45,000 nucleotides of DNA, from contig NZ_NHSJ01000060.1 in NCBI RefSeq assembly GCF_002937075.1, forward strand, positions 1 through 45,000, given 5' to 3'. This stretch comes from Rhodoblastus sphagnicola. Lineage in GTDB: Bacteria > Pseudomonadota > Alphaproteobacteria > Rhizobiales > Beijerinckiaceae. Shown here in pieces: positions 234-33,910 of this stretch. The notes beneath the pieces were generated by a model that was not told the origin of the DNA, did not search any database, and saw nothing but the letters and a program-made list of their open reading frames with translations. Numbering within the stretch: position 1 is the stretch's first letter; each line of letters starts with the position of its first letter. Position numbers and translations under genes: made by a program.

Positions 234-1508
234 TTAGTGCGCGATTACGGTGGTCGAAGTGGTGGTGGTGATCGGCGTCGGCGTCGTGATCACGGTAGAC
301 GATCCCGTCCCGCGTATGGCGGAACTCAGCGCAAAGCCGTTCGTCGCGTAAATCACGGGATCGTTCACTGTCGCTAGAGTCGTGCGCACGAACGTGAGAA
401 ATTTCGTGGCTTCCACGGAGGTGGCGTTGGCGCAGTAGATGACATCCTTGTTGCGCATGGGGAATTTCTGCGCGAGGAAGTAGCCTGAGGGGTCGCGGAG
501 ATCAATTTTGTAGATCACGGGGATGACGCGATCCTCGAATCTGTCAACGTCCACGCCGAGTTGGCGGGCGGCCTCCCGGGTTTCACCCCGATAAAGGAAC
601 ACGGCGGAGGGATTGGCCTGTGCGTCGTTTAGCCCGCCTTGTTTCGCAAGTGCTTCGGCCAGTGAAAGGCGCCAAGCGTCGAACCTGAACTGCCCCTGGA
701 TCCCGCTGGCTCCGAAGGCGACGAAAGTCTGCGGCTCCTGGTAGACGAAGACGATGTCGTTTGGCAGCAGATAAATATTGTTCGAAGCATCGTCCATGAG
801 CGCGCCCATCGGGATGCTGACCCGGCGGCCGTTGCGCTCGAGCGCGACATTGACGTCGTAGCCCTGGCTCCCCGGTCCGCCCGCGCGGGCGATGCCGTCG
901 AGGATGCTTTCTCCGGAAGGGCTTGCGGGAAACCGGCCGGCCGCGCGAACATCGCCGAGGACGCTGTAAAGCGAAGTCCGCTGTTCGGCGAGCGAGACCA
1001 CGACCTGGGGTTCGAGAGCGCGCGACTTGAGACGCTCGACGATCTCGGTCTGGATCTCGGAAGGAGTCCGCCCTTTGGCCCGTATCGATCCACTGAAGGG
1101 AACGGAAATATTGCCCCGATCGTCGACAGCCTGATTCGGAACCGTGACGAAATTCCCTGCCCGAACGCCCGCGCTCGAAGTGAAGAGCCCGCCTGCGGCG
1201 GCCTCGAATATGGTTATGCTGACGATGTCGCCGACCCCGAAGCGAAAGACCTTGGGTGGTGTATGTCTGGCGAAGGCGGTTGACAGCCTCGGAGTCAGGC
1301 GCCCGAGAACATCGACGGTTGCGGGTGTGACAGGAACGACAGCGTATGCAAGCATCGCCGGGTTCAAGCTGTCCTGGGTTCCTCCGGCGTCCACATCCGA
1401 CGCCTGAGGACCGCTCACAGGCGTGATCGCGCATCCGCCGCAGCAAGACAGCGCGAGAACGCTGGCGCAAAGCATTGCTCGCTTATCTGAAAACAGGCTG
1501 ATCAGCAT
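234..1508 (-). CDS. Polysaccharide export outer-membrane lipoprotein (Wza/BexD type)
   Basis: 424 aa. It forms the outer-membrane export channel for capsule or exopolysaccharide. The N-terminus has a basic-hydrophobic signal followed by a Cys cluster (Cys22, 23 and 26), consistent with a lipoprotein signal, though which Cys is lipidated is unclear. The Poly_export domain begins near residue 90 (FRFGVGDIVSITIFE) and is followed by SLBB-like repeats (SVLGDVRAAGRFP near 180; FVAFGASGIQG near 265). The last 25 residues are a Thr/Ser-rich tail (TTPTPITTTTSTTV), unusual for the family and possibly a linker or surface segment. ATG 1508 is used; ATG 1475 is a possible internal start. The next gene upstream on this strand is the matching Wzc-type partner, about 150 bp away, as in Wza-Wzc loci. 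Confidence 0.88.
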   Translation of the reverse strand: MLISLFSDKRAMLCASVLALSCCGGCAITPVSGPQASDVDAGGTQDSLNPAMLAYAVVPVTPATVDVLGRLTPRLSTAFARHTPPKVFRFGVGDIVSITIFEAAAGGLFTSSAGVRAGNFVTVPNQAVDDRGNISVPFSGSIRAKGRTPSEIQTEIVERLKSRALEPQVVVSLAEQRTSLYSVLGDVRAAGRFPASPSGESILDGIARAGGPGSQGYDVNVALERNGRRVSIPMGALMDDASNNIYLLPNDIVFVYQEPQTFVAFGASGIQGQFRFDAWRLSLAEALAKQGGLNDAQANPSAVFLYRGETREAARQLGVDVDRFEDRVIPVIYKIDLRDPSGYFLAQKFPMRNKDVIYCANATSVEATKFLTFVRTTLATVNDPVIYATNGFALSSAIRGTGSSTVITTPTPITTTTSTTVIAH

Positions 1509-1660: not shown

Positions 1661-3973
1661 CTAGACTTCCCCAAAGGAGTCATCGGAATGATAACGGGTG
1701 TAATGCCTTATGTCGTAATAGTCCCGGCAGTTTTGATCGTAGTCCGCCATCAGCTCGGTGTCAGCCTTGTTGAGCACAGCGCCGACGATGTTTTCATAGA
1801 CGTTAGGCGCCGAATGAAGGGCCTGCTTTACAACCTCGATCTTCGTTCGTCCCCATTCGATCACGAGAAGATGGCAATCCGTGAACGAGGCTGTCGCGCG
1901 CGCGTCGACCAGAGGTATCAGCGGCGGCATATCGACGATGACAAAATCATAGGACGCGCGCAGCCGTTCGAACAGCCTTCTCGTCGCCTCGGAAGCAAGC
2001 AGTTCGCTGGTATGAAACAGGGGCGCGCGCCGGACCACGGGGAGGAAAGCGAAATTGGTCTTGGGATCCCGCCAGATCGCCTGCTCCAGCGGCGTCCTGC
2101 CGGTAACGACCTCTACGAGGCCGCACGCGGCGTTGGGACTCAGCCGGGCGGAAAGCGACGGACGCTTGAGATCGCAGTCGACGATGATGACGCGCTGGCC
2201 GGAATGCGCGATGAGCCGCGCGAGAGAAGCCGCGATCGTCGTCTTGCCCTCGTCCGGCAGCGACGAGGTGATGCCGATGATTTTGTTAAGAGACTTGCTC
2301 GGGTTCAGGTCGATTCCGATCTTGGCGTACCTGATGGCTTCCGCGAAGCGTGACATGGGCATGCCGACGACGATGGAATCCACGGAGTGCGGCGTGGGCA
2401 CCGCGCGGGTGGGATGACTGTCCGACTCCGCCGCTTCTTCGCGCGGCCCGGAGGTCGCATGCGCCGGCATGCGCGGCACGACCGAAAAACACGGAAGTCG
2501 CAGGCAGGTTTCGACTTGCGCCGGCGTCCGGAAGGTCCGGTCCATCATGTCCCTCAACAGACCGATCGCGGCGCCAAGCGCCAGGCCGCCGAACGCGCCG
2601 ACCAACAGGATGAGTTTCGACTTTGGCTTGCTTTTGCTCGCCGGCGGCAGCGCCGGATCGACCACGCGGGCTTCCAATATTGGAAATGACTCCTGCTGGA
2701 CCGCGGCCATGTAGCGCTGCTGGAAAGTTTCATAGAGAGACCGATAGGTCTTCGCGTCGCTCTCCATTTTCCGCAGGGTGATCTCCGCGGGACTGTTGAC
2801 ATGGGTAGTCGAAACGACGTTGTTGAGCTGCTTTTCGAGCTCCTGCTGCCGCTTCTTGGCCAATTCGTAATCGCTCCGGCTTGTCTCGGCCAGACGGCGC
2901 ACTTCATCGTTGATTGACTTGCGGATGTTGCGCATTTGTATGCGCAACTCTGAAATGGCCGCGTGAGTCTCGCCGTAGCGGGGAACCCATTCGCTCTCTC
3001 GCCTCTGCAACTCCAGATATTGGGAGCGAAGGGTGTTGATGATTGGATTGGCGAGGGCGTCCGACGCGGCGACGCCCAACGAATCCAAGTTCTCCGCATT
3101 GGATAGCGATACGGACTCGTACTGGTTCAGGCGGGCAAGTTTGTCTGCGGTTTGCGCGCGCGCTTCCATCAGGCGCGCATTGAATTCCGCGATCTGCTGC
3201 TCGTCGATCGACTTTCCGCCGCTTGAAACGATTTTGTGCTGCATCTTGTATGCGTCGACCGCCTGTTCGGCCGCTCCGGCTTGCTCTCCCAGTTCGCGCA
3301 GCCTGTCCTGAAGCCAGGCGATCGCGCGGTGGTTGGCCTCGAGCTTGGAGTTCAGCTGATCGTTGATGTACGCGGCCGCCACCGCATTGGCGATCTCGGC
3401 TGCGCGCGACGGGCTGCTTGAAGAAAAACTGACTTCGAGGATGTTGCTGAATCCGGCGCGGTGCGCGTCCACCCGGCCATCGAACGCGCCAATCAGAAAC
3501 TCGGTCGATTCTGTGGCGCCAGCCTCGGTCTTCGCCGGATCCGGGGGCGAGAAATACTTGAGAAGCGTCCGCAGGTGCGACGCCAAAGCCGATTCGGCGC
3601 CGACGAAATCGGGATCTGCGGCGAGATTCAGCTCCTTGATGACGGCGATCGCGATCGCCGATGATTTCAACACTTGTATCTGCGTCTCGATTTCGGTGGG
3701 CGTGAGAACGGGATCTGCGAGAACGAATTCTTCCTTGACGAATTGCGCCTTCGAATTTTTCAACAGGATTTGCGCCTGCGCGGTGTAGGTCGGCGGCGTG
3801 AACCACAGATAGGCGCCGGCCAATGTCAGCGCGATGGCGACCGACGCGAGCATGAGCTTGTACTGGCGTCGCAAGAGTCCAAGCACGAAATTCACGATTT
3901 CGCCGATCCCGCCCTCGCCGGCGGCGTCGGCGGGTTGAAGTCGAGCCGCTCGCGGCAGATCGCTCTGAAGCAT
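1661..3973 (-). CDS. Polysaccharide co-polymerase with tyrosine autokinase domain (Wzc/ExoP type)
   Basis: About 770 aa inner-membrane protein controlling polymer length and export. In order: a Wzz domain with a first membrane segment (KLMLASVAIALTLAGAYL), a long periplasmic coiled-coil region, a GNVR-like segment (YRSLYETFQQRYMAAVQQES) ending in P-rich ALPPASKSKPKSK, a second membrane helix, and a cytoplasmic BY-kinase. Kinase motifs are visible: Walker A SSLPDEGKTT, Walker A' VIIVDCDLKRPSLS and Walker B FVIVDMPP. The C-terminal tail carries a Tyr cluster (YDQNCRDYYDIRHYTRYHS), the usual autophosphorylation target. Start ATG 3973 is preceded by GGAGAGG at good spacing; ATG 3985, ATG 3997 and GTG 4000 are in-frame alternatives. 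It pairs with the Wza-type gene downstream. Confidence 0.9.
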   Translation of the reverse strand: MLQSDLPRAARLQPADAAGEGGIGEIVNFVLGLLRRQYKLMLASVAIALTLAGAYLWFTPPTYTAQAQILLKNSKAQFVKEEFVLADPVLTPTEIETQIQVLKSSAIAIAVIKELNLAADPDFVGAESALASHLRTLLKYFSPPDPAKTEAGATESTEFLIGAFDGRVDAHRAGFSNILEVSFSSSSPSRAAEIANAVAAAYINDQLNSKLEANHRAIAWLQDRLRELGEQAGAAEQAVDAYKMQHKIVSSGGKSIDEQQIAEFNARLMEARAQTADKLARLNQYESVSLSNAENLDSLGVAASDALANPIINTLRSQYLELQRRESEWVPRYGETHAAISELRIQMRNIRKSINDEVRRLAETSRSDYELAKKRQQELEKQLNNVVSTTHVNSPAEITLRKMESDAKTYRSLYETFQQRYMAAVQQESFPILEARVVDPALPPASKSKPKSKLILLVGAFGGLALGAAIGLLRDMMDRTFRTPAQVETCLRLPCFSVVPRMPAHATSGPREEAAESDSHPTRAVPTPHSVDSIVVGMPMSRFAEAIRYAKIGIDLNPSKSLNKIIGITSSLPDEGKTTIAASLARLIAHSGQRVIIVDCDLKRPSLSARLSPNAACGLVEVVTGRTPLEQAIWRDPKTNFAFLPVVRRAPLFHTSELLASEATRRLFERLRASYDFVIVDMPPLIPLVDARATASFTDCHLLVIEWGRTKIEVVKQALHSAPNVYENIVGAVLNKADTELMADYDQNCRDYYDIRHYTRYHSDDSFGEV

Positions 3974-3997
3974 CCGACGCCTCTCCATAGTTCTCAT

Positions 3998-4296
3998 CAC
4001 CCGGCGTTGCGGGAGGTCCGCCTGGACGCCGCTTCGCGCATGATGTTACCGGCGATATTTAAATCATTATATCGATTTGAATCCAGCTGTCCAACTCAAA
4101 TATGAACGCTTTCATAATGGCGCGCAGACCGAGAAGATGATCTAATAACCTTATGCAAATCAACATAAACGGCCTTCGGTCGGACGTTATGGAAAGTGTG
4201 GTTGCCGGCGGCTTGTTAATGTGATTAATTGATAATATGATTTAATATGATAACGCCGAGCTTGCTGGCTGTTCCTGCGTCGGAGGGGAGTCCGTC
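3998..4296. other. AT-rich divergent intergenic region
   Basis: About 300 bp between the Wzc-type gene (minus) and the plus-strand series. It is much more AT-rich than its surroundings, with a short direct repeat of AATATGA at 4234 and 4244. It probably holds promoters for both directions. I could not identify a specific operator or a convincing -35/-10 pair. Confidence 0.4.
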
Positions 4297-4504: not shown

Positions 4505-5707
4505 ATGAACATAAAGTCCGACGAATTTACGCAGCCGGAGCGCGGGACGGAAACCCGCGAGGCGCGCAACAATTCCCGCCTGGTGGACTACGCCCTGCGC
4601 GGCCTTGACGCCTGCTGGCTTCCCGAACAGGGGTGCTGGTCGCACATCCACCATCTCGACGGGCGCAGCCCGCCCAACGAATCCGTTCCGCACAGCGACG
4701 TGTTTTACACGCTCAACGTGTTGCTCGGCATGTCGCGCGTCGCCAATCTCCCTGACAGTCTCGACTTGTCCGCGATCTACGAGCGAAACGCCCGGCGACT
4801 GCCCCACCTGCCTGTTCGCAAATATGCATATGGCATGGCGCTGTGGGCGGCGGCGGAACTCGGCTTCGACATTCCCGAAGAGGTTGCGCGCGAGGTCCAC
4901 GGCATCCTGACGGACGAGGCGGCCTGGCGCGCGTTCCATGCCCAGGACCTCGGCATGCTGCTCACGGGAGTCGCGGCCCAGGTCCGTGCGGGTCATGCGG
5001 AGTGGGGATCATTCGCGGCGTCGCTGTTTCGATACCTGAAGGAGGATTTCCGCAGCGATTCAGGCCTGTTCCACGACACGCCGGGCGGGCTGCGGCGTCG
5101 CTTCGCTTCGTTCGCCACACAAGTCTACCTGTCGATCGCCTGCTTCCAGCATGGAGAACTCGCAGGCGATCCGGAGGCGATCGCGCTGGGCGTCGCTTGC
5201 GTCAAGAAATTGATCGCGCTGCAGGGGCCGCAGGGCGAGTGGCCATGGTTCTTCGACGCGGCGACGGGTCGTGTGCTCGATTTCTACGAAGTCTATTCCG
5301 TCCACCAGTACGGCATGGCGCCGGCGCTGCTGGAATGGGCGGAGCGCCACGATGTCGCCGGCGCTACCGAGGCGCTGGTCCGCGGCTTCAGATGGGTGCT
5401 CGGCGACAACCAACTCGGGTGTTCGATGCTCACGCCGGATGGCTTGACCATACGGTCGCAGATCCGCGAGGGCGAACGCGAGACCAAGGCGCCGCGCATG
5501 CTGCGCGCGGTCGCGAATATGGCGCTTGGACGCTCGTCGCGTCTGATCGACAGCAGCGGCGTCGCGCTGCGCCTCGAATGCCGCAGCTATGAACTCGGCT
5601 GGATCTTGTGGTCATTCGGACGCCGCGCCGACCTGCCGCAACTCACGGATCACGCCGCGTTCAAAGCGCCGCAAGCGCGCGCCGGCCATCATGATCCACA
5701 GCGCTAG
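4505..5707 (+). CDS. Unrecognised 400-aa protein, probably all-alpha toroid
   Basis: I do not recognise a named family. The sequence has no signal peptide or membrane helix and reads as repeated amphipathic helix pairs with conserved aromatic/His patches (SHIHHLDGRSPPNESVPHSD near 48-65; GPQGEWPWFFDAATGRV near 240; VYSVHQYGMAPALLEW near 263). Such patterns occur in (alpha/alpha)6-barrel sugar-acting enzymes and in prenyltransferase-like folds. The position, first in the plus-strand polysaccharide series and 11 bp before a methyltransferase, suggests a cytoplasmic role in glycan or precursor processing. ATG 4505 follows a GGAG. Catalytic residues cannot be assigned from sequence alone. Confidence 0.75.
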   Translation: MNIKSDEFTQPERGTETREARNNSRLVDYALRGLDACWLPEQGCWSHIHHLDGRSPPNESVPHSDVFYTLNVLLGMSRVANLPDSLDLSAIYERNARRLPHLPVRKYAYGMALWAAAELGFDIPEEVAREVHGILTDEAAWRAFHAQDLGMLLTGVAAQVRAGHAEWGSFAASLFRYLKEDFRSDSGLFHDTPGGLRRRFASFATQVYLSIACFQHGELAGDPEAIALGVACVKKLIALQGPQGEWPWFFDAATGRVLDFYEVYSVHQYGMAPALLEWAERHDVAGATEALVRGFRWVLGDNQLGCSMLTPDGLTIRSQIREGERETKAPRMLRAVANMALGRSSRLIDSSGVALRLECRSYELGWILWSFGRRADLPQLTDHAAFKAPQARAGHHDPQR

Positions 5708-5718
5708 AGGAGATCGAG

Positions 5719-6519
5719 ATGACGAATATCAAGAAGACGCTCGGCTCCTTGATTCCCTATCCCGCCATCCTCGCCGGCCGGAAGGTGTTCCATTACGGGC
5801 GGCGGCGTTGCCTGGTCTGCGCGTCGCACTACAGGTCGCGTCTCGACAGTGGCTATGGCTTTCCTGTCCTCGAGCAATTGCACGTTGCCGGCGGATTGAT
5901 GCGCCGGGCCGACGTCTGCCCGATCTGCCATTCCGGTTCGCGCGAGCGGCTGATTTGGTTCTATCTCACCAAGGAATGGAAACTGTCGGACGACGCCCGG
6001 GGCCGGTTGCGCGTGGCGCATTTCGCGCCCGAGAAGGGGCTGTCCCAGCGCTTGCAGCAACAGTTCCCGGACACCTACCGAGCCTATGATTTCGCCCCGC
6101 AGCGGTACCGACACCTGCGCAACGTCGAATTCCAGGACATTCAGCAACTCTCGCTTGCGAGCGCCTCCGTGGACCTGTTGATCTGCAACCACGTTTTGGA
6201 GCACGTGTTTGATCTCTCTGCGGCCCTGCATGAGGTGCGCCGGGTCCTGTCGGCCAACGGACGGGCGATCATGCAGACGCCAATCGCCCTCAAGCTGGAT
6301 CAGATGCGTGACGGCGGGCAGCGTGCAAGCCCGGCCGAACGAATCGCGCTTTTCGGCCAGCATGACCACGTCCGGCTGTTTACCAGGCAGGGCTACATCG
6401 ATGCGTTAAACGCCGCCGGGCTTTCCGTCACGGCCTACGAACCGTTTCAGGAGCGTAGCGAGGAAGCGACCGCCTGGGAGCTCGACCCGTTCGAGACGTT
6501 GTTCGTCATAAGCATCTAG
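5719..6519 (+). CDS. SAM-dependent methyltransferase with N-terminal Cys pairs
   Basis: 266 aa. The N-terminal third contains CLVC (about 32-35) and CPIC (about 72-75), spaced like a small zinc-binding module. The class I methyltransferase half has a glycine-poor motif I region (RVAHFAPEKGLSQRL), an acidic post-I segment (YRAYDFAPQRY), motif IV DLLICNHVLEHV, and the LHEVRRVLSANGRAIMQTP block typical of Methyltransf_11/23 enzymes. A strong AGAGGAG precedes the start, and the gap to the upstream gene is only 11 bp, so they are probably cotranscribed. The substrate is most likely a sugar or lipid-linked glycan intermediate, inferred from context. The CxxC-containing N-terminus is also common in methyltransferases of O-antigen loci. 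Confidence 0.8.
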   Translation: MTNIKKTLGSLIPYPAILAGRKVFHYGRRRCLVCASHYRSRLDSGYGFPVLEQLHVAGGLMRRADVCPICHSGSRERLIWFYLTKEWKLSDDARGRLRVAHFAPEKGLSQRLQQQFPDTYRAYDFAPQRYRHLRNVEFQDIQQLSLASASVDLLICNHVLEHVFDLSAALHEVRRVLSANGRAIMQTPIALKLDQMRDGGQRASPAERIALFGQHDHVRLFTRQGYIDALNAAGLSVTAYEPFQERSEEATAWELDPFETLFVISI

Positions 6520-6581: not shown

Positions 6582-7529
6582 ATGAGCGCGTCTGCCTCCG
6601 CTGATATATCTCCTGATCTCAGCGTCTTTATCGTTGCGTACAATTCCTGGCATCACGTCGATACATGTTTGTATTCGTTGCAGAAATATTGCACGCGTGA
6701 CGATATCGAGATCATTCTCGTTGACAACGGGCAGGATGGCTCCGGCGAGCGGGCGGCGGCGAATTATCCGAAGGTTAAAGTGCTGCCGCCCATCGGCAAT
6801 GTTGGTTTCGGCGCAGGCAACAATTACGCATTTCGACATTCGAAGGGTGAGTATATCTTGTTGCTCAATCCCGACACGGAGATATGCGACAACTCGATCC
6901 TTGTGCTGTTGAACTTTCTCAAACAGGTCTCGGGTGACGTGATCGTCGGCGGTCGGACCACGTTCAACGACCGGCTCGACAACGGGAACCAACTGCGCTT
7001 GCCGAGTATAGCGGTCTTGTTCAAGGAAATGCTCGGCGCGTCGAAGACCCATCTGAAGATCGCCAAGCGGCCCGGCCAGACTGAGCCCTATCGCGTTGAG
7101 GTCGTCTCCGGCGCCTTTCTGATGACGCGGCGGACGACATGGAAAAAGCTCGGAGGGTTCGACGAAGGCTTTTTTCTGTATTTCGAGGAAGTTGATCTTT
7201 GCAAGCGGTTGGCGGCGGTTGGCGGCGCAGCCTGGGTCAAGCCCGATTGCATGGTGCGGCACGATGTCGGGTCGGGCGAGAAGGTTGGCGAAACCCGCAT
7301 CATGCTCCAGTTGGCCGGTGAAATGCATTATATCCGCAAGCACTTCCCGCGCGGCCGCGCGGCCGTGGCCTTCGTTTTCGTCTATTTGACCGTCCTTCGT
7401 CGCTTCCTCAAATACGCGCTGTTGAGCGCGGTTGATCGCGGGTGTCACGCGGGGCGGCGCGCGTTCGCCAAGGCCTTGACGAACCCTTCCGCATGGCGTT
7501 TCGGCTATGCGCTGAAGGAGCGGGATTAA
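6582..7529 (+). CDS. Family 2 glycosyltransferase (rhamnosyltransferase-like)
   Basis: 315 aa, GT-A fold. The nucleotide-binding start is SVFIVAYNSWHHVDTCLYSL (about 12-31), followed by IILVDNGQDGSGE. The metal-binding region is GEYILLLNPDTEI, and the acceptor/catalytic block is GGFDEGFFLYFEEVDLCKRL, matching the WbbL/GumH-like rhamnosyltransferase pattern. A hydrophobic segment near residue 260 (AVAFVFVYLTVLRRFLKYALL) may be a membrane-associating helix. It transfers a sugar to a lipid-linked oligosaccharide at the cytoplasmic face of the inner membrane. It is 62 bp after the methyltransferase. Donor and acceptor cannot be told from sequence. Confidence 0.9.
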   Translation: MSASASADISPDLSVFIVAYNSWHHVDTCLYSLQKYCTRDDIEIILVDNGQDGSGERAAANYPKVKVLPPIGNVGFGAGNNYAFRHSKGEYILLLNPDTEICDNSILVLLNFLKQVSGDVIVGGRTTFNDRLDNGNQLRLPSIAVLFKEMLGASKTHLKIAKRPGQTEPYRVEVVSGAFLMTRRTTWKKLGGFDEGFFLYFEEVDLCKRLAAVGGAAWVKPDCMVRHDVGSGEKVGETRIMLQLAGEMHYIRKHFPRGRAAVAFVFVYLTVLRRFLKYALLSAVDRGCHAGRRAFAKALTNPSAWRFGYALKERD

Positions 7530-7935: not shown

Positions 7936-8211
7936 ATGAATCAGATTTCAAAGATTGAAATAGACGACACGTCAATTCGCGAGCCGATTCGCAACTTTCT
8001 GCTCGATAATTTCCTGCTCGGATCAGGGGCGGAGCTGGAGGATGACACTCCGCTGATGGAGGCTGGAATATTGGATTCGACGGGCGTCGTCGAATTGGTC
8101 TCTTTTATTGAGGATACATTCGAAATTATGATCAGCGATCATGAAATAACCGCTGATAATTTCAACTCCATTTCGAAGATGGCGAATTTCGTGTGGAATA
8201 TTTCGAAATGA
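7936..8211 (+). CDS. Acyl carrier protein
   Basis: 91 aa, acidic. The phosphopantetheine attachment motif is GILDSTGVVELV with Ser at about residue 51, preceded by the typical DDTPLMEAG helix 1-2 loop. The DST in place of the DSL of fatty-acid-synthesis ACPs is common in dedicated carrier proteins that accept amino or hydroxy acids. The stop codon overlaps the start of the next gene (ATGA), so the carrier and its ligase are translationally coupled. It probably carries the acid activated by the neighbouring AMP-forming ligase as a thioester. Confidence 0.92.
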   Translation: MNQISKIEIDDTSIREPIRNFLLDNFLLGSGAELEDDTPLMEAGILDSTGVVELVSFIEDTFEIMISDHEITADNFNSISKMANFVWNISK

Positions 8212-9752
8212 CGCAGCGCGGGAGGCTTTTGTTCGAGTATTTGCGCGACTCTGCGGCGCAGTTCCCAGGCAAGCCTGCCGTTATTGTCGGCGACCAGGCG
8301 CATAGCTTCAGGGAAATCGACGAGGACAGCGACCGTGTGGCCGAAGCGTTGCAGCGCCTGGGCGTGAGGCGGGGCGACCGGGTAGGAGCCATCCTCGAAA
8401 ACTCGATCGAGTTGGTGGTGGCAATGTGGGCGACGCTCAAAGCCGGAGCGGTGTTCATTCCAATCAGTCCGCAGGTCAAGGCCGAGAAGCTCGGCTTCAT
8501 GCTCGCCGACTCGGGCGCCACCGCCTTGTTCGCGACCGCATCGTTGGTTAGGCGCGTCGAGGAGGCCGTTGCAAGCATCTCTTTTCCCGGCGTGATCGTC
8601 TGGGTGGGCGACAAGGTCGCGACGACCGGGGTCCAATGGATTGAAGTCTTGACCGGCCTCCCGCACCCCCTGGCGGATCCCCAGCTCATAGATCAGGACC
8701 TGTGCTTGATCATCTATACCTCGGGCTCGACCGGCAGCCCGAAGGGCGTGATGATGACCCACCGGAATATTTGTAACAACGTCTGGTCGATCTCGACTTA
8801 TTTGCGCAATCAGCCGGAAGACGTCGTTTTGTGCGTGTTGCCGCTATCGTTCGACTACGGCTTGTTTCAGATCCTGACTGGGGCCCGCGTCGGCTTTACG
8901 GTCGTGCTCGAGCGGTCGTTTGCTTTTCCCTACGACGTCCTCAAGCGCATCGGCGCGTATCGCGTGACCGGCTTGCCGGGCGTGCCGACCATTTTCGCCA
9001 AGATCCTGGAGTTCGCGCCGTTCGATCGCCTCGACCTCACGTCGCTGCGTTACTTGTCGAACACCGCGGCGGCCTTTCCCGCCGCGCACATCCGCGCGCT
9101 GCGGACGCTTCTGCCACAGGCGACGATCTTTTCAATGTACGGTCTCACTGAGTGCACACGGGTCTCCTATCTCGATCCGTCGCGACTCGACGCGAAAATC
9201 ACCTCCGTCGGGCGGGCGATGCCGAACTCCGAGACCTACATCGTCGATGAACACGCAAGGCGTTGCGGTCCGAGGGAGATCGGCGAACTCGTCGTAAGAG
9301 GCGCCAGCGTCATGCGCGGCTATTGGCGGCGTCCCGAAGAAACCGCCAGGACTTTGCGCGACGGCGACATCGCTGGCGAGAAGGTGTTGTTCACCGGCGA
9401 TTTGTTCTGGATGGACGAGGAGGGCGACCTCTACTTCGTCGGGCGCCGCGATGATGTCTTCAAGTGTCGTGGCGAGAAGGTGAGCCCGCGGGAAGTGGAA
9501 GCCTGCCTGTATGAGCTTGACTGGGTCGCGGAGGTCTCGGTCGTCGGCGTGCCGCACCCGAGCGACGGCATGGCGATCAAGGCGCATGTGGTGGCGCGCG
9601 CGGGGCGAGCCGCGTCCGAGGACCAGTTGCGGAAACACTGCATGCGTCGGCTTGAGCCGCTCCTCGTTCCGAGATTTTTCGAGGTGGCGGAAGCGCTCCC
9701 CAAGACCGATTCGGGGAAGATCAAGACGGCCGAGTTACGGCGAAAGGGTTGA
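8208..9752 (+). CDS. AMP-forming acid:carrier-protein ligase (ANL superfamily)
   Basis: 514 aa. The adenylate-forming core motifs are present: the P-loop YTSGSTGSPKGVMMTH at about 175, the MYGLTECTR motif near 310, FTGDLFWMDEEGDLYFVGRRDD near 395, and the C-terminal catalytic lysine in LPKTDSGKIKTAELR. It activates a carboxylic acid with ATP and would load it on the adjacent ACP (or CoA). ATG 8208 overlaps the ACP stop. The family also includes ligases of exosortase-A loci and amino-acid adenylation proteins. Which acid is used cannot be read from the sequence. It is followed 6 bp later by the amidotransferase. Confidence 0.9.
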   Translation: MTQRGRLLFEYLRDSAAQFPGKPAVIVGDQAHSFREIDEDSDRVAEALQRLGVRRGDRVGAILENSIELVVAMWATLKAGAVFIPISPQVKAEKLGFMLADSGATALFATASLVRRVEEAVASISFPGVIVWVGDKVATTGVQWIEVLTGLPHPLADPQLIDQDLCLIIYTSGSTGSPKGVMMTHRNICNNVWSISTYLRNQPEDVVLCVLPLSFDYGLFQILTGARVGFTVVLERSFAFPYDVLKRIGAYRVTGLPGVPTIFAKILEFAPFDRLDLTSLRYLSNTAAAFPAAHIRALRTLLPQATIFSMYGLTECTRVSYLDPSRLDAKITSVGRAMPNSETYIVDEHARRCGPREIGELVVRGASVMRGYWRRPEETARTLRDGDIAGEKVLFTGDLFWMDEEGDLYFVGRRDDVFKCRGEKVSPREVEACLYELDWVAEVSVVGVPHPSDGMAIKAHVVARAGRAASEDQLRKHCMRRLEPLLVPRFFEVAEALPKTDSGKIKTAELRRKG

Positions 9753-9758
9753 CCGGAT

Positions 9759-11798
9759 ATGTGCGGCATTGGAGGCGTCATGTCATCCGCCGCCGAGGCG
9801 GCTCCGACCTTCGGCGAAATGCGGCGCATGGTCGCCATGTTGTCGCACCGCGGGCCCGACGGCTACGGGCTTTATCGCGATGACCAAGTTGGCCTCGTCC
9901 ATTCCCGGTTGAGCATCATCGATCTCGCGGGCGGCGCCCAGCCGCTGTCCAACGAGGACGGTTCTGTGTGGCTGACCTTCAACGGCGAAATCTTCAATTA
10001 CATCGAGTTGCGCCAGAACCTCGCCGAGTTGGGCCATCGCTTTTCCACCAGCGGGGACAGCGAAGTCATCGTCCATTGCTACGAAAGATACGGCTCGCGC
10101 GCCTGGGAGATGCTGAACGGCCAGTTTGCCTTTGCGCTATGGGATTCCCGACGTCGCCTGTTGTGGCTGGTGCGCGATCGGCTTGGCATACTCCCTCTGC
10201 ATTACGCGCGCGCGCGCGGTCACGTTGTGTTCGCCTCCGAAGCCAAAGCCATTTTCGCAGGCGGCCGGATCGCGCCGCGCGTCGATCCCGAGGGATTGTG
10301 CCAGGCCTTCACCACCTGGTCGGCGATGGCGCCGCGCAGCGCGTTTCAGGACATCCGCCAGGTTCCTCCGGCCACCGCGCTTTGCTTCGATTCCGCGCTT
10401 TGCGCGCGCGAACAGACCTACTGGCGCGTTCACCCGGCCCGGCCCTCCTTTGCCAAGGGCTCGGCGGACGACGCCCTCGAGGCGCAGTTGAAGCGATCGG
10501 TCGCGCTGCGTCTGCGCGCGGACGTGCCGGTCGGCGCCTATGTCAGCGGCGGGCTGGATTCTTCGGTCATCACCAGCCTGGCGGCGGAAGCTCGTGGCCA
10601 TGTCGAGACTTTCGGCATCCGATTCGCAGATCCGCGTTTCGACGAAACCAGGGAACAGCGCCTCGTCGCCAAACATCTTGGCGTCCATCACCACGAGTTG
10701 CTTTGCAGCGCCAGCGACATTCGCGACGCCCTGCCTGAGACGGTTTGGCATTGCGAGACGCCCCTGTTGAGGACGTCGCCCGTGCCCCTGTTTCTTCTGT
10801 CGCAAGCGGTGAAGGCGGCGGGCGTCAAGACCGTGCTGACGGGGGAAGGCGCAGACGAGCTGTTGTGCGGCTACACGATCTTCAAAGAGGATCAGATTCG
10901 GCGGTTTTGGGCGCGTTCGCCCCAGTCGACCATGCGGCCCGCCCTTCTGCAGCGGATCCATCATTACGTCGGCGCGGAGGGCGCCCGTCAGAATGCGGTG
11001 TGGCAGAGCTTTTTTAGCCACAAGCTGCTCGAAACCGCGCATCCGTTCTATTCGCACTTGATCCGTTGGCGTAACACCGCCTGGACCTTGCGACTTCTCG
11101 CGCCCGAAATACGTAACAGCTTGCCGCTCGAGTCGATGTTCGCGGACATGGCGGCCGAATTGCCTCCGGACTGGAGCGCCTGGGACCCGGTCACGCGAGC
11201 GCAATATATCGAGATCCAGGGATTCATGTCGTCCTACCTGCTCTCTTGCCAGGGCGACCGGGTGGCGATGGCCCACGGCGTCGAAGCGCGTTATCCGTTC
11301 CTCGATCCCGATTTCGTCGATTTCTGCTTTACCCTGGAAACGACCGACAAGATGATCGGAACCCGCGACAAGATCGCGCTTCGTCGGGTCGCCCGGCGGC
11401 GTTTGCCGCCAGAAATCTCGGGCCGGCGAAAGCAGCCGTTCCGGGCGCCGATTGCCGCCGCCCTTTTCGACCGGGACGAGGCAACGTTCGAGGACGCGCT
11501 CTCACCGTCGAATCTCGCCGCCAGCGGGTATTTCGATACGACCGCCGTCACCCAATTGCTTGCGAGGGCGCGCGCGCGCGGCCGCAGTCTCGGCGAGCGG
11601 GAAGAAATGGGCCTGATCGGCGTGTTGACTCTGCAGCTGCTGAACGACGCGTTCGGACCGCAATTCCGGCAGCGCGCGCTTGAAGCCGAAGCGCTCTTGG
11701 CGGGCATGCGCTGCGACGTGTGGGTCGACCGGGCGATCGACAAGCCCTCCATCCCGCCTCCTCACTCTGTGTTGTCGGCGTTTGAAGTCAGGCATTAG
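9759..11798 (+). CDS. Glutamine-dependent asparagine-synthetase-like amidotransferase
   Basis: 679 aa. The N-terminal Ntn glutaminase domain starts at MCGIGG with catalytic Cys2, then HRGPDGYG, LSIIDL and FNGEIFNY. The C-terminal ATP-pyrophosphatase domain has the PP-loop VSGGLDSSV (about 265) and LTGEGADELLCGY (about 365). It transfers glutamine ammonia to an adenylated carboxylate. In this cassette the likely substrate is a carrier-bound or glycan-linked acid rather than free aspartate, because housekeeping AsnB does not travel with an ACP and ligase. The length is slightly above the usual 590-650 aa, with an extra C-terminal helical region. The next gene starts only 3 bp after its stop. 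Confidence 0.88.
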   Translation: MCGIGGVMSSAAEAAPTFGEMRRMVAMLSHRGPDGYGLYRDDQVGLVHSRLSIIDLAGGAQPLSNEDGSVWLTFNGEIFNYIELRQNLAELGHRFSTSGDSEVIVHCYERYGSRAWEMLNGQFAFALWDSRRRLLWLVRDRLGILPLHYARARGHVVFASEAKAIFAGGRIAPRVDPEGLCQAFTTWSAMAPRSAFQDIRQVPPATALCFDSALCAREQTYWRVHPARPSFAKGSADDALEAQLKRSVALRLRADVPVGAYVSGGLDSSVITSLAAEARGHVETFGIRFADPRFDETREQRLVAKHLGVHHHELLCSASDIRDALPETVWHCETPLLRTSPVPLFLLSQAVKAAGVKTVLTGEGADELLCGYTIFKEDQIRRFWARSPQSTMRPALLQRIHHYVGAEGARQNAVWQSFFSHKLLETAHPFYSHLIRWRNTAWTLRLLAPEIRNSLPLESMFADMAAELPPDWSAWDPVTRAQYIEIQGFMSSYLLSCQGDRVAMAHGVEARYPFLDPDFVDFCFTLETTDKMIGTRDKIALRRVARRRLPPEISGRRKQPFRAPIAAALFDRDEATFEDALSPSNLAASGYFDTTAVTQLLARARARGRSLGEREEMGLIGVLTLQLLNDAFGPQFRQRALEAEALLAGMRCDVWVDRAIDKPSIPPPHSVLSAFEVRH

Positions 11799-11801
11799 CA
11801 A

Positions 11802-12797
11802 ATGGATGACCACGTGAACGAGAATAAGCCAACAGCGCCACATCAGAGCGCCTTGGCGATCGACTGCGCCTCGGAGGCGGATCGCATTGGCGCATTCATC
11901 GTGGCGACCCTGCGCAAGCTTAACCGCCGTGGTTGCGTGCTGGGTGTCAGCGGCGGCGTCGATTCCGCAGTCTGCGCCCATCTGGCCGCTCGCGCCGTCG
12001 GATCGGACCGCGTCCTGGCCCTCCTCATGCCGGAACGGGATTCGACGAAGGAGGCCGGAGCCCGCGCGCGACGTCTCTGCGACAGCCTGGGCATTCCGCA
12101 TGTGGAGGAGGACATCACGGACCCACTCGAGGCGATCGGCTGTTACCGCAGGCGCGACGAGGCGATCCGGAAACAATTTCCCGACTATGGCGCGGGATGG
12201 CGGCAAAAGATCGCGATCGTCGCCGGAAAGACTTGGATGCCGCAATTCAACCTGATCGTCCAAAGTCCCGACGGACAAATATTTGAGCGCAGATTGCCGG
12301 TCGACGCCTATCTGCAGATCGTCGCAGCGACGAATTTCAAGCAGCGCCTTCGCAAGTCCATGGAATATTATCATGCGGAACGATTGAACTACGGAGTGCT
12401 GGGCACGCCCAACAAGCTCGAATACGATCTCGGTTTTTTCGTGCGCGGCGGAGACGGATTGGCGGATTTCAAGCCGATAGCCCATCTTTACAAGACTCAA
12501 GTCTATGCCTTGGCCGAACATCTCGGCGTTCCCGATGAAATTCGCCGTGAGCCGCCGAGTACGGACACCTACAGCCTGACGCAGAGCCAGGAAGAATTCT
12601 ATTTTGCGCTCTCCTGGTCGGACGCTGACCGTGTGCTGCATGGGATGTCCGAAAAGCTCAGCGCCGCCGAAATCGCCATAGCCGTCGGGCGCGACCGGAG
12701 CACGGTCGCACGCGCCATACAAGAGTTCCAGGGCAAGCGCCGCGCCGCCTCCCGCGCCCTGGCGCAGGCTTACGTTCTCGGCGGGGGAGCGTCGTAG
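11802..12797 (+). CDS. NAD-synthetase-like ATP pyrophosphatase (cassette paralogue)
   Basis: 331 aa. The PP-loop LGVSGGVDSAVCA (about 47-59) and the C-terminal block NYGVLGTPNKLEYDLGFFV, then GDGLADFKPIAHLYKTQVY, match ammonia-dependent NAD synthetase. Between them (about 100-150) lies an insertion containing WRQKIAIVAGKTWMPQFNLIV, not expected in short NadE proteins, and GTPNKLE replaces the usual GTxNxSE. A C-terminal helix-turn-helix-like extension (SAAEIAIAVGRDRSTVARAI) is also unusual. Coupling to the amidotransferase and ACP suggests a second amidation or ligation step on a cassette substrate rather than bulk NAD synthesis. True NAD synthetase activity cannot be excluded. Confidence 0.75.
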   Translation: MDDHVNENKPTAPHQSALAIDCASEADRIGAFIVATLRKLNRRGCVLGVSGGVDSAVCAHLAARAVGSDRVLALLMPERDSTKEAGARARRLCDSLGIPHVEEDITDPLEAIGCYRRRDEAIRKQFPDYGAGWRQKIAIVAGKTWMPQFNLIVQSPDGQIFERRLPVDAYLQIVAATNFKQRLRKSMEYYHAERLNYGVLGTPNKLEYDLGFFVRGGDGLADFKPIAHLYKTQVYALAEHLGVPDEIRREPPSTDTYSLTQSQEEFYFALSWSDADRVLHGMSEKLSAAEIAIAVGRDRSTVARAIQEFQGKRRAASRALAQAYVLGGGAS

Positions 12798-14110: not shown

Positions 14111-14827
14111 TCAGCCTTTCGCGATTGGGATGACAAGGGCGCGCACGCCGGCGCCGCGTGGCGTGATCTCCGCCGCCAGACCGAGCGCCGCGATTTTGGC
14201 CGAAAACCAGCGCGGCAGGTGATCGCATAAAATTTCCAGACTGGAGAAGCGGCGCGCCTCCAGCAGCGGCGCCAGCACATCCACCGAATTGGCGTCGCGG
14301 TAGCGCGCGAACACGGCTTCAAGATCGATCCGGAGCCGGCCGTCGGGCAGCGATTCCGCCAGCCTGTGCACGGCGTCGATGGCCTCGGGCGTGAGGTGGC
14401 GGCGCGTCGGGCCGCCTTCGCCGGCGCTACAGCCGCCGGGCGAGCAGAACAGCGCGGCGAAGGCGCGCTCCCGCGCTTCCGTTTCGCGGTCGCGCGCCAG
14501 TTCCGCGTCGCGTTGCGCGAAGGCGTCGAGATCGAGCGCGGCGAGCGGCCCGCGCGCCTTCCAGACGCGGAAGCCCTCCTCTTGCAACAGCGAATAGACC
14601 AGCCCCCGGTTCCCCCCGGACACGAAGGCGTGGCCCGCGCCGAACCGCTCGATCACGCCGCGCAAGAGTTTTTGGATCGAGGCGAGATTGGCTTGTGCTG
14701 AAATGGCGAAGGCCGCTTCGTCCACGACGCGCCAGCCGTCAGCGGCCCTTTCGAACAGGCGCAAGGTTCCGGGCGTCTGGACATCGGCGATCTCGTCGCG
14801 CGCATCGACATGGGCGATAATCTTCAT
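14111..14827 (-). CDS. anfO: Iron-only nitrogenase accessory protein AnfO
   Basis: 238 aa. It begins MKIIAHVDARDEIADVQTPG, characteristic of the AnfO family (Fe-only nitrogenase accessory protein). A CSPGGCS motif near 165 could bind metal. It lies 51 bp after anfK in the same direction and is followed 5 bp later by the GGCT-like gene. In other Fe-nitrogenase bacteria the protein is needed for good diazotrophic growth through AnfHDGK; its biochemical role is not settled. ATG 14827 is preceded by AGGA. Upstream in-frame codons lack a ribosome-binding site. Confidence 0.88.
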   Translation of the reverse strand: MKIIAHVDARDEIADVQTPGTLRLFERAADGWRVVDEAAFAISAQANLASIQKLLRGVIERFGAGHAFVSGGNRGLVYSLLQEEGFRVWKARGPLAALDLDAFAQRDAELARDRETEARERAFAALFCSPGGCSAGEGGPTRRHLTPEAIDAVHRLAESLPDGRLRIDLEAVFARYRDANSVDVLAPLLEARRFSSLEILCDHLPRWFSAKIAALGLAAEITPRGAGVRALVIPIAKG

Positions 14828-14878
14828 GACGGTTTTCCTGAATCGGGAGGCGGGCGCGCCGCGCCCGCCCATCGTTGG

Positions 14879-16267
14879 TCACCACACGTTGAGCAGCCAT
14901 TCCTTGCGCTTCTTGTGCTCCATGTCCGTGAACAGCGCATTGGCCATCTGCTCGGCCAGCCAGGTCGCGCCGCCATAGCCGACCACCGGATAACGATAGA
15001 GTCCGGCGCGGTCGTAGGTGGGGAAGCCGACGCGCACCATGGGGATGTCGTAGTCGATCGAGACGAAACGGCCCTTGGAATGACCGAGGATCAGGTCGAG
15101 TTCGAGACCCTTGTTCTTGATGCGGTCTTCCAGATCCCAGAAGTCGGCGTTGGTGACGATCTCCATGGGATAGTCGACATGCTCCTGCAACGCCTTGATG
15201 CGGGGGTCGTTGACGTAAGCCGAATTGTCGTCGCCGAGCAGCAGCAGTTGCGGCTTCATTTCCAGGTCGAGACAGAATTCGGCCAGACCAATCACCAGAT
15301 CGGCGTTGCCGTAGATCGCGACCTTCTTGTCGGCGAGGAACATATGCGCGAGATCGGTGATGGCGTCGAGCGCGACGCCGCGCTTGCGCACCAGCGAGGC
15401 CGGGATCGGCTTGCCCGTCGCTTCCGACAGTTTCTTCAACAGCGCGTCGGTGTTGCGGATGCCGATCGGCGTCGGCCCGACGATGGAGGGAATCTTGAAC
15501 TTCTTTTCGAGGAACTGGGCCGCCTTGCCGCCCTCATAGCGGTTGAGCGCGAAAGTGTGGGTCGCCGAACCCGTGGACACCAGATCCTCGATGGTGGTGT
15601 TGCCGTGCGAGACTTCGCTGCCGTCGGGCATGATCGGGGAATCGAAACTCTCGATCTCGAACAGCACGGTGGCGTCGATCTGCATCTCCGCCAGCAGCGA
15701 TTTCAGCTCGGTGACATCGCCGGGATTGACCCAGCCGGTGATGAAATTTATCTTGCCGTTCGACGGCCCCTTGCGCGCAAACTTTTTGACGAAGTCACGC
15801 ACGGCGACGTCATAGCCCGACACCATCGAGCCGACGAAGGACGGCGTGTGGATCGGCAGCAGATGCACTTCCCGGTCGGGGTATTTTTCTGCGAGCAGCC
15901 CCTCTTCCAGCTTGGTGATGACGCCGTCGATATCGTCGCCGATCACTTCCGTCGAACAGGTGGAGATGATCGGAATGACCTTGAGATGCGGATAGCGCGC
16001 CAGCAGCACGTCCACGCCTTCCTCGACGCGCCCGCAGGCGCCGAACACCGCGCCGTCCTCGTGCAGCGAGGACGAGGCGATTTCAAAGCTCTCCTTGAGA
16101 TGCTGGGAGATCAGCAGGCGCACGAACATCACGCAACCCTGGCCGCCGTGGACCAGGCCGATGCAATCCTTGACGCCGATCGAGACATATTGCGCGCCGG
16201 CGGGCTGGCAGGTGAAAATCGGATTGATCGTGCCGATCCGGTCCTTGACTTTGACTTCGCAGTTCAT
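14879..16267 (-). CDS. anfK: Iron-only nitrogenase beta subunit AnfK
   Basis: 462 aa, the family's usual length. With AnfD and AnfG it forms the FeFe protein that reduces N2 (and protons, and to some extent CO2) using electrons from AnfH. The P-cluster cysteines are visible: FTCQPAGAQ near the N-terminus, GGQGCVMF and STCSTEVIGDD. Conserved blocks INFITGWVNPGDVTELK and IVGPTPIGIRNTDALL follow. Start ATG 16267 (MNCEVKVKDRIG) overlaps no gene but lies 11 bp after anfG, and its GAGGA ribosome-binding site overlaps the anfG stop. Identity as AnfK rather than VnfK or NifK follows from the short N-terminus and the anfG neighbour. Confidence 0.96.
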   Translation of the reverse strand: MNCEVKVKDRIGTINPIFTCQPAGAQYVSIGVKDCIGLVHGGQGCVMFVRLLISQHLKESFEIASSSLHEDGAVFGACGRVEEGVDVLLARYPHLKVIPIISTCSTEVIGDDIDGVITKLEEGLLAEKYPDREVHLLPIHTPSFVGSMVSGYDVAVRDFVKKFARKGPSNGKINFITGWVNPGDVTELKSLLAEMQIDATVLFEIESFDSPIMPDGSEVSHGNTTIEDLVSTGSATHTFALNRYEGGKAAQFLEKKFKIPSIVGPTPIGIRNTDALLKKLSEATGKPIPASLVRKRGVALDAITDLAHMFLADKKVAIYGNADLVIGLAEFCLDLEMKPQLLLLGDDNSAYVNDPRIKALQEHVDYPMEIVTNADFWDLEDRIKNKGLELDLILGHSKGRFVSIDYDIPMVRVGFPTYDRAGLYRYPVVGYGGATWLAEQMANALFTDMEHKKRKEWLLNVW

Positions 16268-16278
16268 GGCAAAAATCC

Positions 16279-16707
16279 TCAATAATTCTGGACCGTCAGC
16301 TCTTCATTGAGCGAGCCGTCGATGGTGAGCCAGTCGATGCGGGCGTGCAGGATTTTCAGCAGGGCGAGCACCTCGTCCTTGCCCATGCCGGCGAGCCAGA
16401 CGCAGTGTTCGCGGAAGGCGCGGGACAGCAGCACCGCATCGACCCAGTAGCACTTGTCCAGCGGCGTTTCGTTTTGCACCTCTTCGCCGACGAGCAGTTG
16501 CGCAGTCTTGCCGAGAATGCCCTCGTTCTGCTTGCGGCGGTCCCAGCCGCGCGAATTGAACTGCCACAGGCAGTTCTTCATGATGTAAGTCTCCATTTCG
16601 GAGACTTTTTCGCGCGTCGCGGCGTCGAACCCGGCGAGCGGATCGGAGGCGTGCAGCTTGGGATAATTCGCCCGCGCCGAGGGTTTTTCCTTCTTGAAAC
16701 CGGCCAT
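16279..16707 (-). CDS. anfG: Iron-only nitrogenase delta subunit AnfG
   Basis: 142 aa. The delta subunit occurs only in alternative nitrogenases. The core block METYIMKNCLWQFNSRGWDR, followed by YWVDAVLLSRAF, is diagnostic. It begins MAGFKKEKPSARANYPKL, with a GAGGAG ribosome-binding site ending 7 bp before ATG 16707. It lies between anfD (11-bp gap) and anfK (11-bp gap), so the three are translated from one message. It stabilises the AnfDK complex and probably assists cofactor insertion, by analogy with characterised AnfG/VnfG. Confidence 0.95.
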   Translation of the reverse strand: MAGFKKEKPSARANYPKLHASDPLAGFDAATREKVSEMETYIMKNCLWQFNSRGWDRRKQNEGILGKTAQLLVGEEVQNETPLDKCYWVDAVLLSRAFREHCVWLAGMGKDEVLALLKILHARIDWLTIDGSLNEELTVQNY

Positions 16708-16718
16708 GTCAAAACTCC

Positions 16719-19290
<2,572 letters not shown>

Positions 19291-19419
19291 TTATGAGGGC
19301 GAGAATTATGCAGAAGTCGCGCGTTAGGATTTAAGTATTTGATTTAAAAGTATTTTATATACTGCCGCGCTGGCGGAACAGCCCTGGAAATTCGCTGCGA
19401 ATGTGAATCCCCGCACGGA

Positions 19420-19501
19420 TTTACACGAAGGTAAAAAGTCGTCGCGCCGCGTCTTTGGAGAGGGAATCTCCCTGAAGGTAAATTCTGGAAGATTTTACCT
19501 T
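19420..19501 (-). promoter_or_regulatory. Candidate AnfA enhancer sites upstream of anfH
   Basis: Two inverted repeats share the same half-site: TTTAC-N6-GTAAA at 19420-19435 and AAGGTAAA-N11-TTTACCTT at 19475-19501. GAAGGTAAA occurs at both 19427 and 19474, 47 bp apart. They lie about 150-240 bp upstream of the -24/-12 promoter, with an AT-rich stretch (19327-19362) between that could be bent by IHF. AnfA binding is inferred from position. Confidence 0.55.
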
Positions 19502-19531
19502 TGGGTTTATTTTGCGCCTTCGCGCGCGCAA

Positions 19532-19561
19532 AGAAAAACCGCCGGCGCGAGGCCGGCGGTT
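19532..19561 (-). terminator. Intrinsic terminator of anfA
   Basis: AACCGCCGGC pairs perfectly with GCCGGCGGTT across a 5-nt loop (19537-19561), and on the minus strand the stem is followed by TTTTTCTTT. It lies 28 bp after the anfA stop and separates anfA from the anfH control region. Confidence 0.85.
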
Positions 19562-19589
19562 CATCGAGGAGAAATCAGATTTGCTGCGG

Positions 19590-21212: not shown

Positions 21213-21384
21213 GGCTGTTCCCGCCTCAGCCGGGTGAGTCCGGCCGTGAGGATGTCTCAGCAAGTGCGAGGCCAGACGCTCATCTTTTTCCGGACGGGCG
21301 CGCGGGCGCGAATTCTGGCCGATTCCACCGGGGCGCGCGAGGTCGCGCGCGCCGCCTTGAGCTGGTCTGAAATATACCGATTAA

Positions 21385-33832: not shown

Positions 33833-33910
33833 ATGCGCCGCTTGCCCACATTTGCTGGTATCTCCACCAAACTTCACTGGCCGCCGCGCGGAATCAAGCG
33901 CTTCAGGACG

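Follow-up and report, generated by a model that had tools for sequence, protein, structure and literature searches.

The Wbp/Vim pathway of Porphyromonas and Tannerella is the closest worked example for the gene set treated here. Deletion of wbpS (PGN_1234), which encodes an AsnB-like protein, leads to loss of a uronamide; for VimA, a protein related to N-acetyltransferases, its authors suggest a role in moving an aminoacyl group to the same sugar (PMC7468200). On pSymB of Sinorhizobium meliloti, the ligase gene SMb20650 is co-transcribed with SMb20651, the gene of an acyl carrier protein (ACP), and SMb20650 acylates holo-SMb20651 in Escherichia coli without replacing FadD (PMC7232532). Other settings contain ACP, ligase, GNAT or AsnB members in combinations that differ from the set described below (PMC2922099). 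The window analyzed in this study is a stretch of 45,000 nucleotides from Rhodoblastus sphagnicola (positions 1-45,000), which is the entire contig NZ_NHSJ01000060.1, so that its neighborhood was read up to the contig ends. It contains four consecutive genes for an ACP, an AMP-forming ligase of the ANL type, an AsnB-like glutamine amidotransferase and an ammonia-type NadE-like protein (Table 1). Enzymes of the AsnB and NadE families adenylate carboxylates. In Vibrio cholerae O1, an ACP and a ligase (rfbK-rfbL) make the acyl group of a surface sugar (tetronate), and we know of no AsnB or NadE members among those genes. Our literature searches found no paper describing exactly this four-gene set, in line with an earlier note made from the sequence alone (the original prediction), although a related ligase-ACP pair, the probable S. 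meliloti one, has already been studied (PMC7232532).

The four genes almost certainly form one pathway. We propose, with confidence about evenly divided, that they represent a cassette of variable gene order in which a carrier-bound acyl acid receives a carboxamide and is then passed on, often to a surface glycan. The substrate would be an acid of the amino-acid-like or dicarboxylic type. In the window, the four genes are intact, lie on the same strand and nearly overlap. The ATG start of the ligase overlaps the ACP stop codon as ATGA (8208-8211) and is likelier than the GTG start at 8193, which gives an overlap of 19 bases; 6 bases separate the ligase stop from the AsnB-like start and 3 bases separate the AsnB-like stop from the NadE-like start. 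The list of open reading frames (ORFs), Pfam and NCBIfam confirm the families and the spacing (overlapping or at most 6 bp apart) that had been read from the sequence.

Since the same four families recur together in other genomes, chance is excluded, and the predicted unity of the four genes holds across relatives, genome samples and gene orders. All four genes are present in each of the first 11 relatives, namely five annotated plasmid loci (S. meliloti, Nitratireductor, Azospirillum, Shinella and Mesorhizobium, the five records read among 208 matched in a plasmid protein search) and six other genomes of the same order found by family search. An alignment-based scan of genome contigs yielded at least 584 relatives from 591 stretches. 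For the best 80 of these, score thresholds on both strands placed an ACP gene within 9 kb of the NadE-like gene in 74 loci, a ligase gene in 76 and an AsnB gene in 65; 61 loci have all three (57 when only same-strand genes are counted), with some loci counted twice as L024/L056 and L087/L131 are probably the same records. Where 9 kb of sequence is available on both sides, 33 of 38 loci have all three partners; the five incomplete ones lack AsnB (L043, L107), a ligase at threshold (L058), the ACP (L111) or all three partners (L103, Caldithrix). At least five gene orders occur (AsnB-ACP-ligase-NadE, AsnB-ligase-ACP-NadE, ACP-ligase-AsnB-NadE, NadE-AsnB-ligase-ACP and AsnB-NadE-ACP-ligase), and the set has therefore been kept together through reshuffling. 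The distance matrices of the four proteins are correlated (71 rows; Mantel r of 0.83 for NadE-AsnB and 0.55-0.71 for the other pairs, reached in 0 of 999 permutations, in a test that leaves species relatedness in).

The 80 relatives belong mostly to Pseudomonadota, the others to Planctomycetes, Verrucomicrobia, Myxococcota, Acidobacteria, Gemmatimonas, Geothrix, Desulfobacterales-type bacteria, Caldithrix and actinobacterial metagenome-assembled genomes; no relative was confirmed in the viral contigs searched. The distribution is patchy. The NadE-like gene was found in 7 of 199 genomes sampled from the order, in 2 of 289 from the class (the own genome and G655, locus L161) and in 15 of 398 drawn evenly from the phylum, the own genome included. 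The other 14 phylum-sample genomes all carry the ACP and the ligase, and 13 of them also AsnB and hence all four genes.

The database names NAD(+) synthase and asparagine synthase would agree with ordinary enzymes clustered by accident, the NadE-like protein making NAD, the AsnB-like protein asparagine and the ligase acyl-CoA. This explanation is very improbable, considering the recurrence across many lineages in several gene orders and the properties of the NadE-like protein. The latter scores 417.9 bits on NF002048 (PRK00876; cut-off 313) and resembles the NH3-dependent NAD synthetase NadE in its fold, its SGGxDS ATP loop and its C-terminal helices, as seen in an alignment and in a structure model (mean pLDDT of 92.1) with 2e18 and 1xng as best PDB matches. 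The ATP-loop residues S50, G51, G52, D54 and S55 are invariant across 60 aligned NadE-like proteins. It differs from NadE by a conserved insertion of about 50 residues (76 residues where the Pyrococcus chain 2e18 has 25), which the model builds as extra strands at about residues 112-166 and in which C114, Y115, D119, P127 and K136 are each kept in at least 95% of 92 proteins. A TDTYSLxQxQ(E/D)EFYF segment, at which solved NadE chains read differently, also sets it apart. While the alignment with 2e18 and the model establish the internal insertion suggested by the original prediction, the helix-turn-helix (HTH)-like C-terminal tail suggested along with it proved to be ordinary, as the same residues align with the normal C-terminal helices of NadE. 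A DNA-binding domain at this place was rejected (HTH_23, 22.2 bits with a cut-off of 24.6).

Moreover, the NadE-like protein is not the only NAD synthetase of its genome. Another NAD_synthase match is present in all 21 cassette genomes tested (in G346 and G457 this additional match spans domain positions 5-166 only, the frames being 695 and 826 residues long), which makes it unlikely that the gene serves to supply NAD. The window's own genome encodes a second NadE of 584 aa with a 239.5-bit domain, whose aligned part is 28% identical to the cassette protein. The inability of SMb20650 to substitute for FadD also speaks against the ordinary-enzyme explanation (PMC7232532); together with the NCBIfam scores it weakens, and does no more than weaken, a reading of the ligase as a fatty acyl-CoA ligase. 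We are thus nearly certain that the cassette does not serve the supply of NAD or asparagine, and naming these genes NAD(+) synthase and asparagine synthase, as the five annotated plasmid records do, is probably misleading for metabolism models. If the proposed pathway is true, the NadE fold has been shifted from cofactor synthesis to carrier-linked chemistry, which would be a new use.

The ACP carries the predicted DST motif, which 83 of the 86 cassette ACPs in the alignment share; of its seven best matches among solved chains, five bear the name peptidyl carrier protein. The ligase has the pocket motif SFDYG at positions 219-223 (numbering from the GTG start), and its K509 and R323 are invariant in all 87 aligned ligases. 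D221 sits where adenylation domains of nonribosomal peptide synthetases (NRPS) have what we take to be the Asp holding the amino group of the substrate. The invariant R323 falls at a position that presumably corresponds to a pocket residue of GrsA, and therefore suggests a second acidic group (a carboxylate) on the substrate. In the first step of the proposed pathway, the ligase would adenylate a small acid and load it on the holo-ACP; in ligases with Asp at the amino-group position, that of the window included, the combination with R323 suggests an amino-acid-like substrate with a second carboxylate, e.g., a Glu- or Asp-like one.

In a second step, the free carboxylate would be converted into a carboxamide by the AsnB-like protein, with ammonia from glutamine, and/or by the ammonia-type NadE-like protein. 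The AsnB-like protein shows features of asparagine synthetase B, i.e., the glutaminase nucleophile Cys2 (conserved in 73 of 76 proteins, the other three being gapped there) and the synthetase ATP loop (SGGLDSS), and reaches 469 bits on TIGR01536 (cut-off 267). At the place of the TT-I-R segment of E. coli AsnB, which we assume to bind aspartate, it reads LLRTSPVP (thus including LRTSPVP), is two residues shorter, and is matched by related RTAPxP segments in the AsnB proteins of its relatives.

The AsnB-like protein might instead amidate a sugar, converting a uronic acid into a uronamide as WbpS/WbqG do, while ACP, ligase and NadE-like protein separately make an (amino)acyl group attached by a GNAT, giving two decorations on one glycan. 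The loss of the uronamide upon wbpS deletion and the aminoacyl transfer to the same sugar suggested for VimA speak for this explanation, as does the score of 392 bits (cut-off 817) of the window AsnB on eps_aminotran_1, the family given for WbpS (PMC7468200). Some loci with ACP, ligase and NadE also have no AsnB nearby. In the order sample, however, the cassette type of AsnB (at least 914.9 bits) is found in the same seven genomes as the NadE-like gene (7/7), and the next-best AsnB proteins reach at most 648.5 bits, with 12 further genomes carrying such sisters and none of them a NadE-like match. Seven sister loci were read, of which two have an ACP-like gene and none a cassette ligase or NadE-like gene; the two are L179 and L180, in which the ACP-like gene adjoins the sister AsnB. 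Furthermore, AsnB stays in the operon at two loci whose available flanks contain no glycan genes. We regard two separate decorations as rather unlikely. The Wbp/Vim pathway, which forms the basis of this explanation, resembles the pathway proposed here in combining an AsnB-like amidation with a presumed GNAT-type aminoacyl transfer on one sugar; it differs in that no NadE is reported to take part and the term "carrier protein" is absent from the main text (PMC7468200).

Two accessory genes that recur near the cassettes are new here. The first belongs to a family of about 370 aa beside many cassettes, for which Pfam gave nothing in two members and weak GNAT matches in L021 and L077. Its model, based on 20 sequences (pLDDT of 87.7), matches GNAT folds, including those of N-myristoyltransferase and Eis (best E-value 2.7e-12, TM of about 0.5-0.6), and a tandem-GNAT acyltransferase of this kind lies within 9 kb of 53 of the 105 loci over which accessory genes were counted. 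A KAS III-like gene is found near eight cassettes. The second is a PrmC/HemK-like protein with an NPPY, LPPY or APPY motif, encoded near 29 of the 105 loci and, in a 30th (L019 of S. meliloti), about 11 kb away; in 17 of the 29 its gene and a core gene of the same strand are at most 100 bp apart. All six checked genomes with a cassette PrmC-like gene also have a separate, higher-scoring PrmC, and the own genome and G015, without a PrmC-like gene near the cassette, have one PrmC each. Three neighbor clusters initially taken as further new neighbors were dropped because they look like reverse-strand shadow frames.

The PrmC-like gene is restricted to cassettes whose ligase reads AFDYG at positions 219-223. 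All 29 readable ligases of the 30 loci have this motif (the sequence of L105 contains no ligase), and among the 101 aligned cassette ligases the gene, searched for with a profile built from 15 of the loci that carry it, accompanies 29 of 37 with AFDYG, none of 11 with SFDYG and none of 53 others (0/64 outside AFDYG), without weaker PrmC-like matches at loci with other ligase motifs. The rule was seen in 87 ligases and held in 14 fresh loci (6/7 with AFDYG, 0/7 with other motifs). Because the nearest families of the PrmC-like protein methylate the amide nitrogen of glutamine, its presence argues for a product that would carry a carboxamide in these cassettes. In a third step, limited to AFDYG cassettes, the PrmC-like enzyme would N-methylate the carboxamide, and in a fourth step the tandem-GNAT (or KAS III-like) acyltransferase would move the group to an acceptor amine or hydroxyl. 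The window cassette, with its SFDYG ligase, is of the unmethylated type, with no such methyltransferase and no recognized tandem GNAT.

The activation, tethering and amidation of an acid put forward in the original prediction are supported in part, as they fit the ACP serine, K509 and R323 of the ligase, Cys2, both ATP loops and the link between PrmC and AFDYG. A more specific and tentative version, which is possible yet doubtful, is a widespread and undescribed pathway that starts from an amino acid bearing a carboxylate in its side chain. Once placed on its own carrier, this acid would be amidated by a repurposed NAD synthetase and the AsnB-like protein; a repurposed release-factor glutamine methyltransferase would optionally N-methylate the amide, and the tandem GNAT would attach the resulting glutaminyl- or asparaginyl-like group to a surface glycan, with the ligase motif as a predictor of methylation. 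If true, the shift of a PrmC-like enzyme from protein to small-molecule amides would likewise be a new use.

Genes for glycosyltransferases, for a chain-length family and for polysaccharide deacetylases are repeatedly found by the cassettes, and the Azospirillum and Shinella plasmid loci carry glycan genes alongside. Among 144 flank ORFs from 16 loci, we counted Epimerase (6), Bac_transf (4), polysaccharide deacetylase (4) and Glycos_transf_2, Glyco_trans_1_4, Polysacc_synt_2 and Acyl_transf_3 (3 each), compared with Epimerase (3), Glyco_tranf_2_3 (2) and, judging from the list order, at most one of each of the six remaining families among 138 control ORFs elsewhere in the same genomes, both sets being partly hand-picked and the counts small. 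The nearest glycan genes of the S. meliloti locus lie more than 12 kb off, and none were found in the available flanks of the Nitratireductor and Mesorhizobium loci (L020 and L023; 10 and 0.4 kb downstream, respectively). Attachment of the acid to the glycan of the adjacent genes, as originally predicted, is therefore likely, though not general: the enrichment supports it, and these three loci and the NRPS/PKS genes at some others do not.

Those genes bring in a further explanation, in which a small NRPS-like route makes a lipid- or peptide-like secondary metabolite and the proximity of glycan genes is incidental. NRPS or NRPS/polyketide synthase (PKS) proteins with condensation-adenylation-carrier or adenylation-carrier-ketosynthase domains are encoded near the cassette at L053:17566-20667, L065:159-3368 and L076:16711-20907, an AMP-binding protein with a thioesterase domain at L127:2359-5112, and the best solved-structure matches of the window ligase are NRPS chains; the cassettes without glycan genes in the available flanks agree as well. 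We consider this route unlikely, given the recurring glycosyltransferases, chain-length family and deacetylases, and the glycosyltransferase and Wza/Wzc genes of the window itself.

Several observations weigh against the amidation of a carrier-bound acid followed by transfer to a glycan. Some loci have no AsnB within 9 kb, among them eight that have ACP, ligase, NadE and PrmC-like genes; these are L034, L035, L037, L043, L044, L050, L057 and L064, four of them from Thiomonas and some with short flanks. Membership in PRK00876 alone is not a mark of the cassette, since Methanosarcina acetivorans, one of 14 control genomes, exceeds its cut-off. D221 is found in only 41 of 87 aligned ligases, and substrates therefore probably differ between cassettes; as a universal mark of amino acids this residue was rejected. 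Behind its best family, the window ligase scores higher on fatty-acid CoA ligases (359 bits) than on amino acid adenylation (280.8 bits, cut-off 317.4), and a 2009 paper on SMb20651 is said to have found short fatty acids as acyl groups in E. coli, which, if correct, would weigh against an amino-acid-like substrate. In the own genome, the tandem-GNAT profile gives a single partial match of 23 bits and a single GNAT query gives no match. Along the ligase tree, PrmC presence switches about 6 times compared with 20.5 times in shuffles, so shared ancestry explains part, though not all, of its link with AFDYG. Finally, the glycan-gene enrichment is modest.

The S. meliloti locus (L019) has the gene order AsnB-ACP-ligase-NadE, thus all four genes together as in the window. 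On pSymB of strain 1021, the NadE-like gene matches at 1450639-1451538 and the L019 ACP has a single match, 100% identical, at 1453161-1453424. By place and content, SMb20650/SMb20651 are probably the ligase-ACP pair of this cassette; acylation of a partner ACP by its ligase is reported for the S. meliloti pair only (PMC7232532). Unlike the window, with its SFDYG ligase and neither accessory gene, L019 has an AFDYG ligase, and a GNAT and the PrmC-like gene about 11 kb off. With the rule linking AFDYG to the methyltransferase, the question of the substrate can be put to the test in S. meliloti, whose probable ACP and ligase have already been expressed.

The window also resembles the exopolysaccharide genes of XrtA/PEP-CTERM systems, as TIGR03098 is the best family of its ligase and TIGR03108 the second-best of its AsnB, with scores below the cut-offs in both cases (454 of 592 and 392 of 817 bits). 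The exosortase family PF09721 has no match in the window's genome (a control was positive in 1 of 14 genomes), and simple membership was rejected on these grounds. Deacetylases of the DUF3473 type, presumably a mark of XrtA systems, adjoin six cassettes (Pfam was run on one of the six cluster members); we know of no NadE in the described XrtA sets.

Table 1. Cassette genes, their elements and polysaccharide-related neighbors in the window.
Feature	Position	Strand	Basis
Acyl/peptidyl carrier protein (ACP), 91 aa	7936..8211	+	PF00550, 27.7 bits
Phosphopantetheine Ser S48 of ACP, motif D47-S48-T49	8077-8079	+	PF00550, alignment
ANL (AMP-forming) ligase	8208..9752 (alternative GTG start 8193)	+	PF00501/PF13193
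AsnB-like glutamine amidotransferase, 679 aa	9759..11798	+	PF13537 + PF00733
NadE-like ammonia-type ATP pyrophosphatase, 331 aa, PRK00876 family, no glutaminase domain	11802..12797	+	NF002048
Inserted element of NadE-like protein, ~residues 112-166	12135..12299	+	Alignment, model
Family 2 glycosyltransferase, upstream of cassette	6582..7529	+	PF00535
S-adenosylmethionine-dependent methyltransferase, Methyltransf_11 type	5719..6519	+	Pfam; PrmC-like profile gives no match
Wzc-like chain-length/tyrosine kinase protein	1661..4000	-	Pfam, NCBIfam
Wza-like polysaccharide export protein	234..1508	-	Pfam, NCBIfam

At the limits applied, neither Pfam nor NCBIfam matches the protein of 400 aa encoded directly upstream of the methyltransferase and glycosyltransferase genes (4505-5707, + strand). 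An Acetyltransf_5-type GNAT is encoded at 33833-34744 (+ strand), after an ABC transporter region. The minus strand at 14111-21263 encodes AnfO, a nitrogenase component 1 protein, a NifH-type protein and a sigma-54 activator, and is apparently an iron-only nitrogenase region adjoining the polysaccharide genes.

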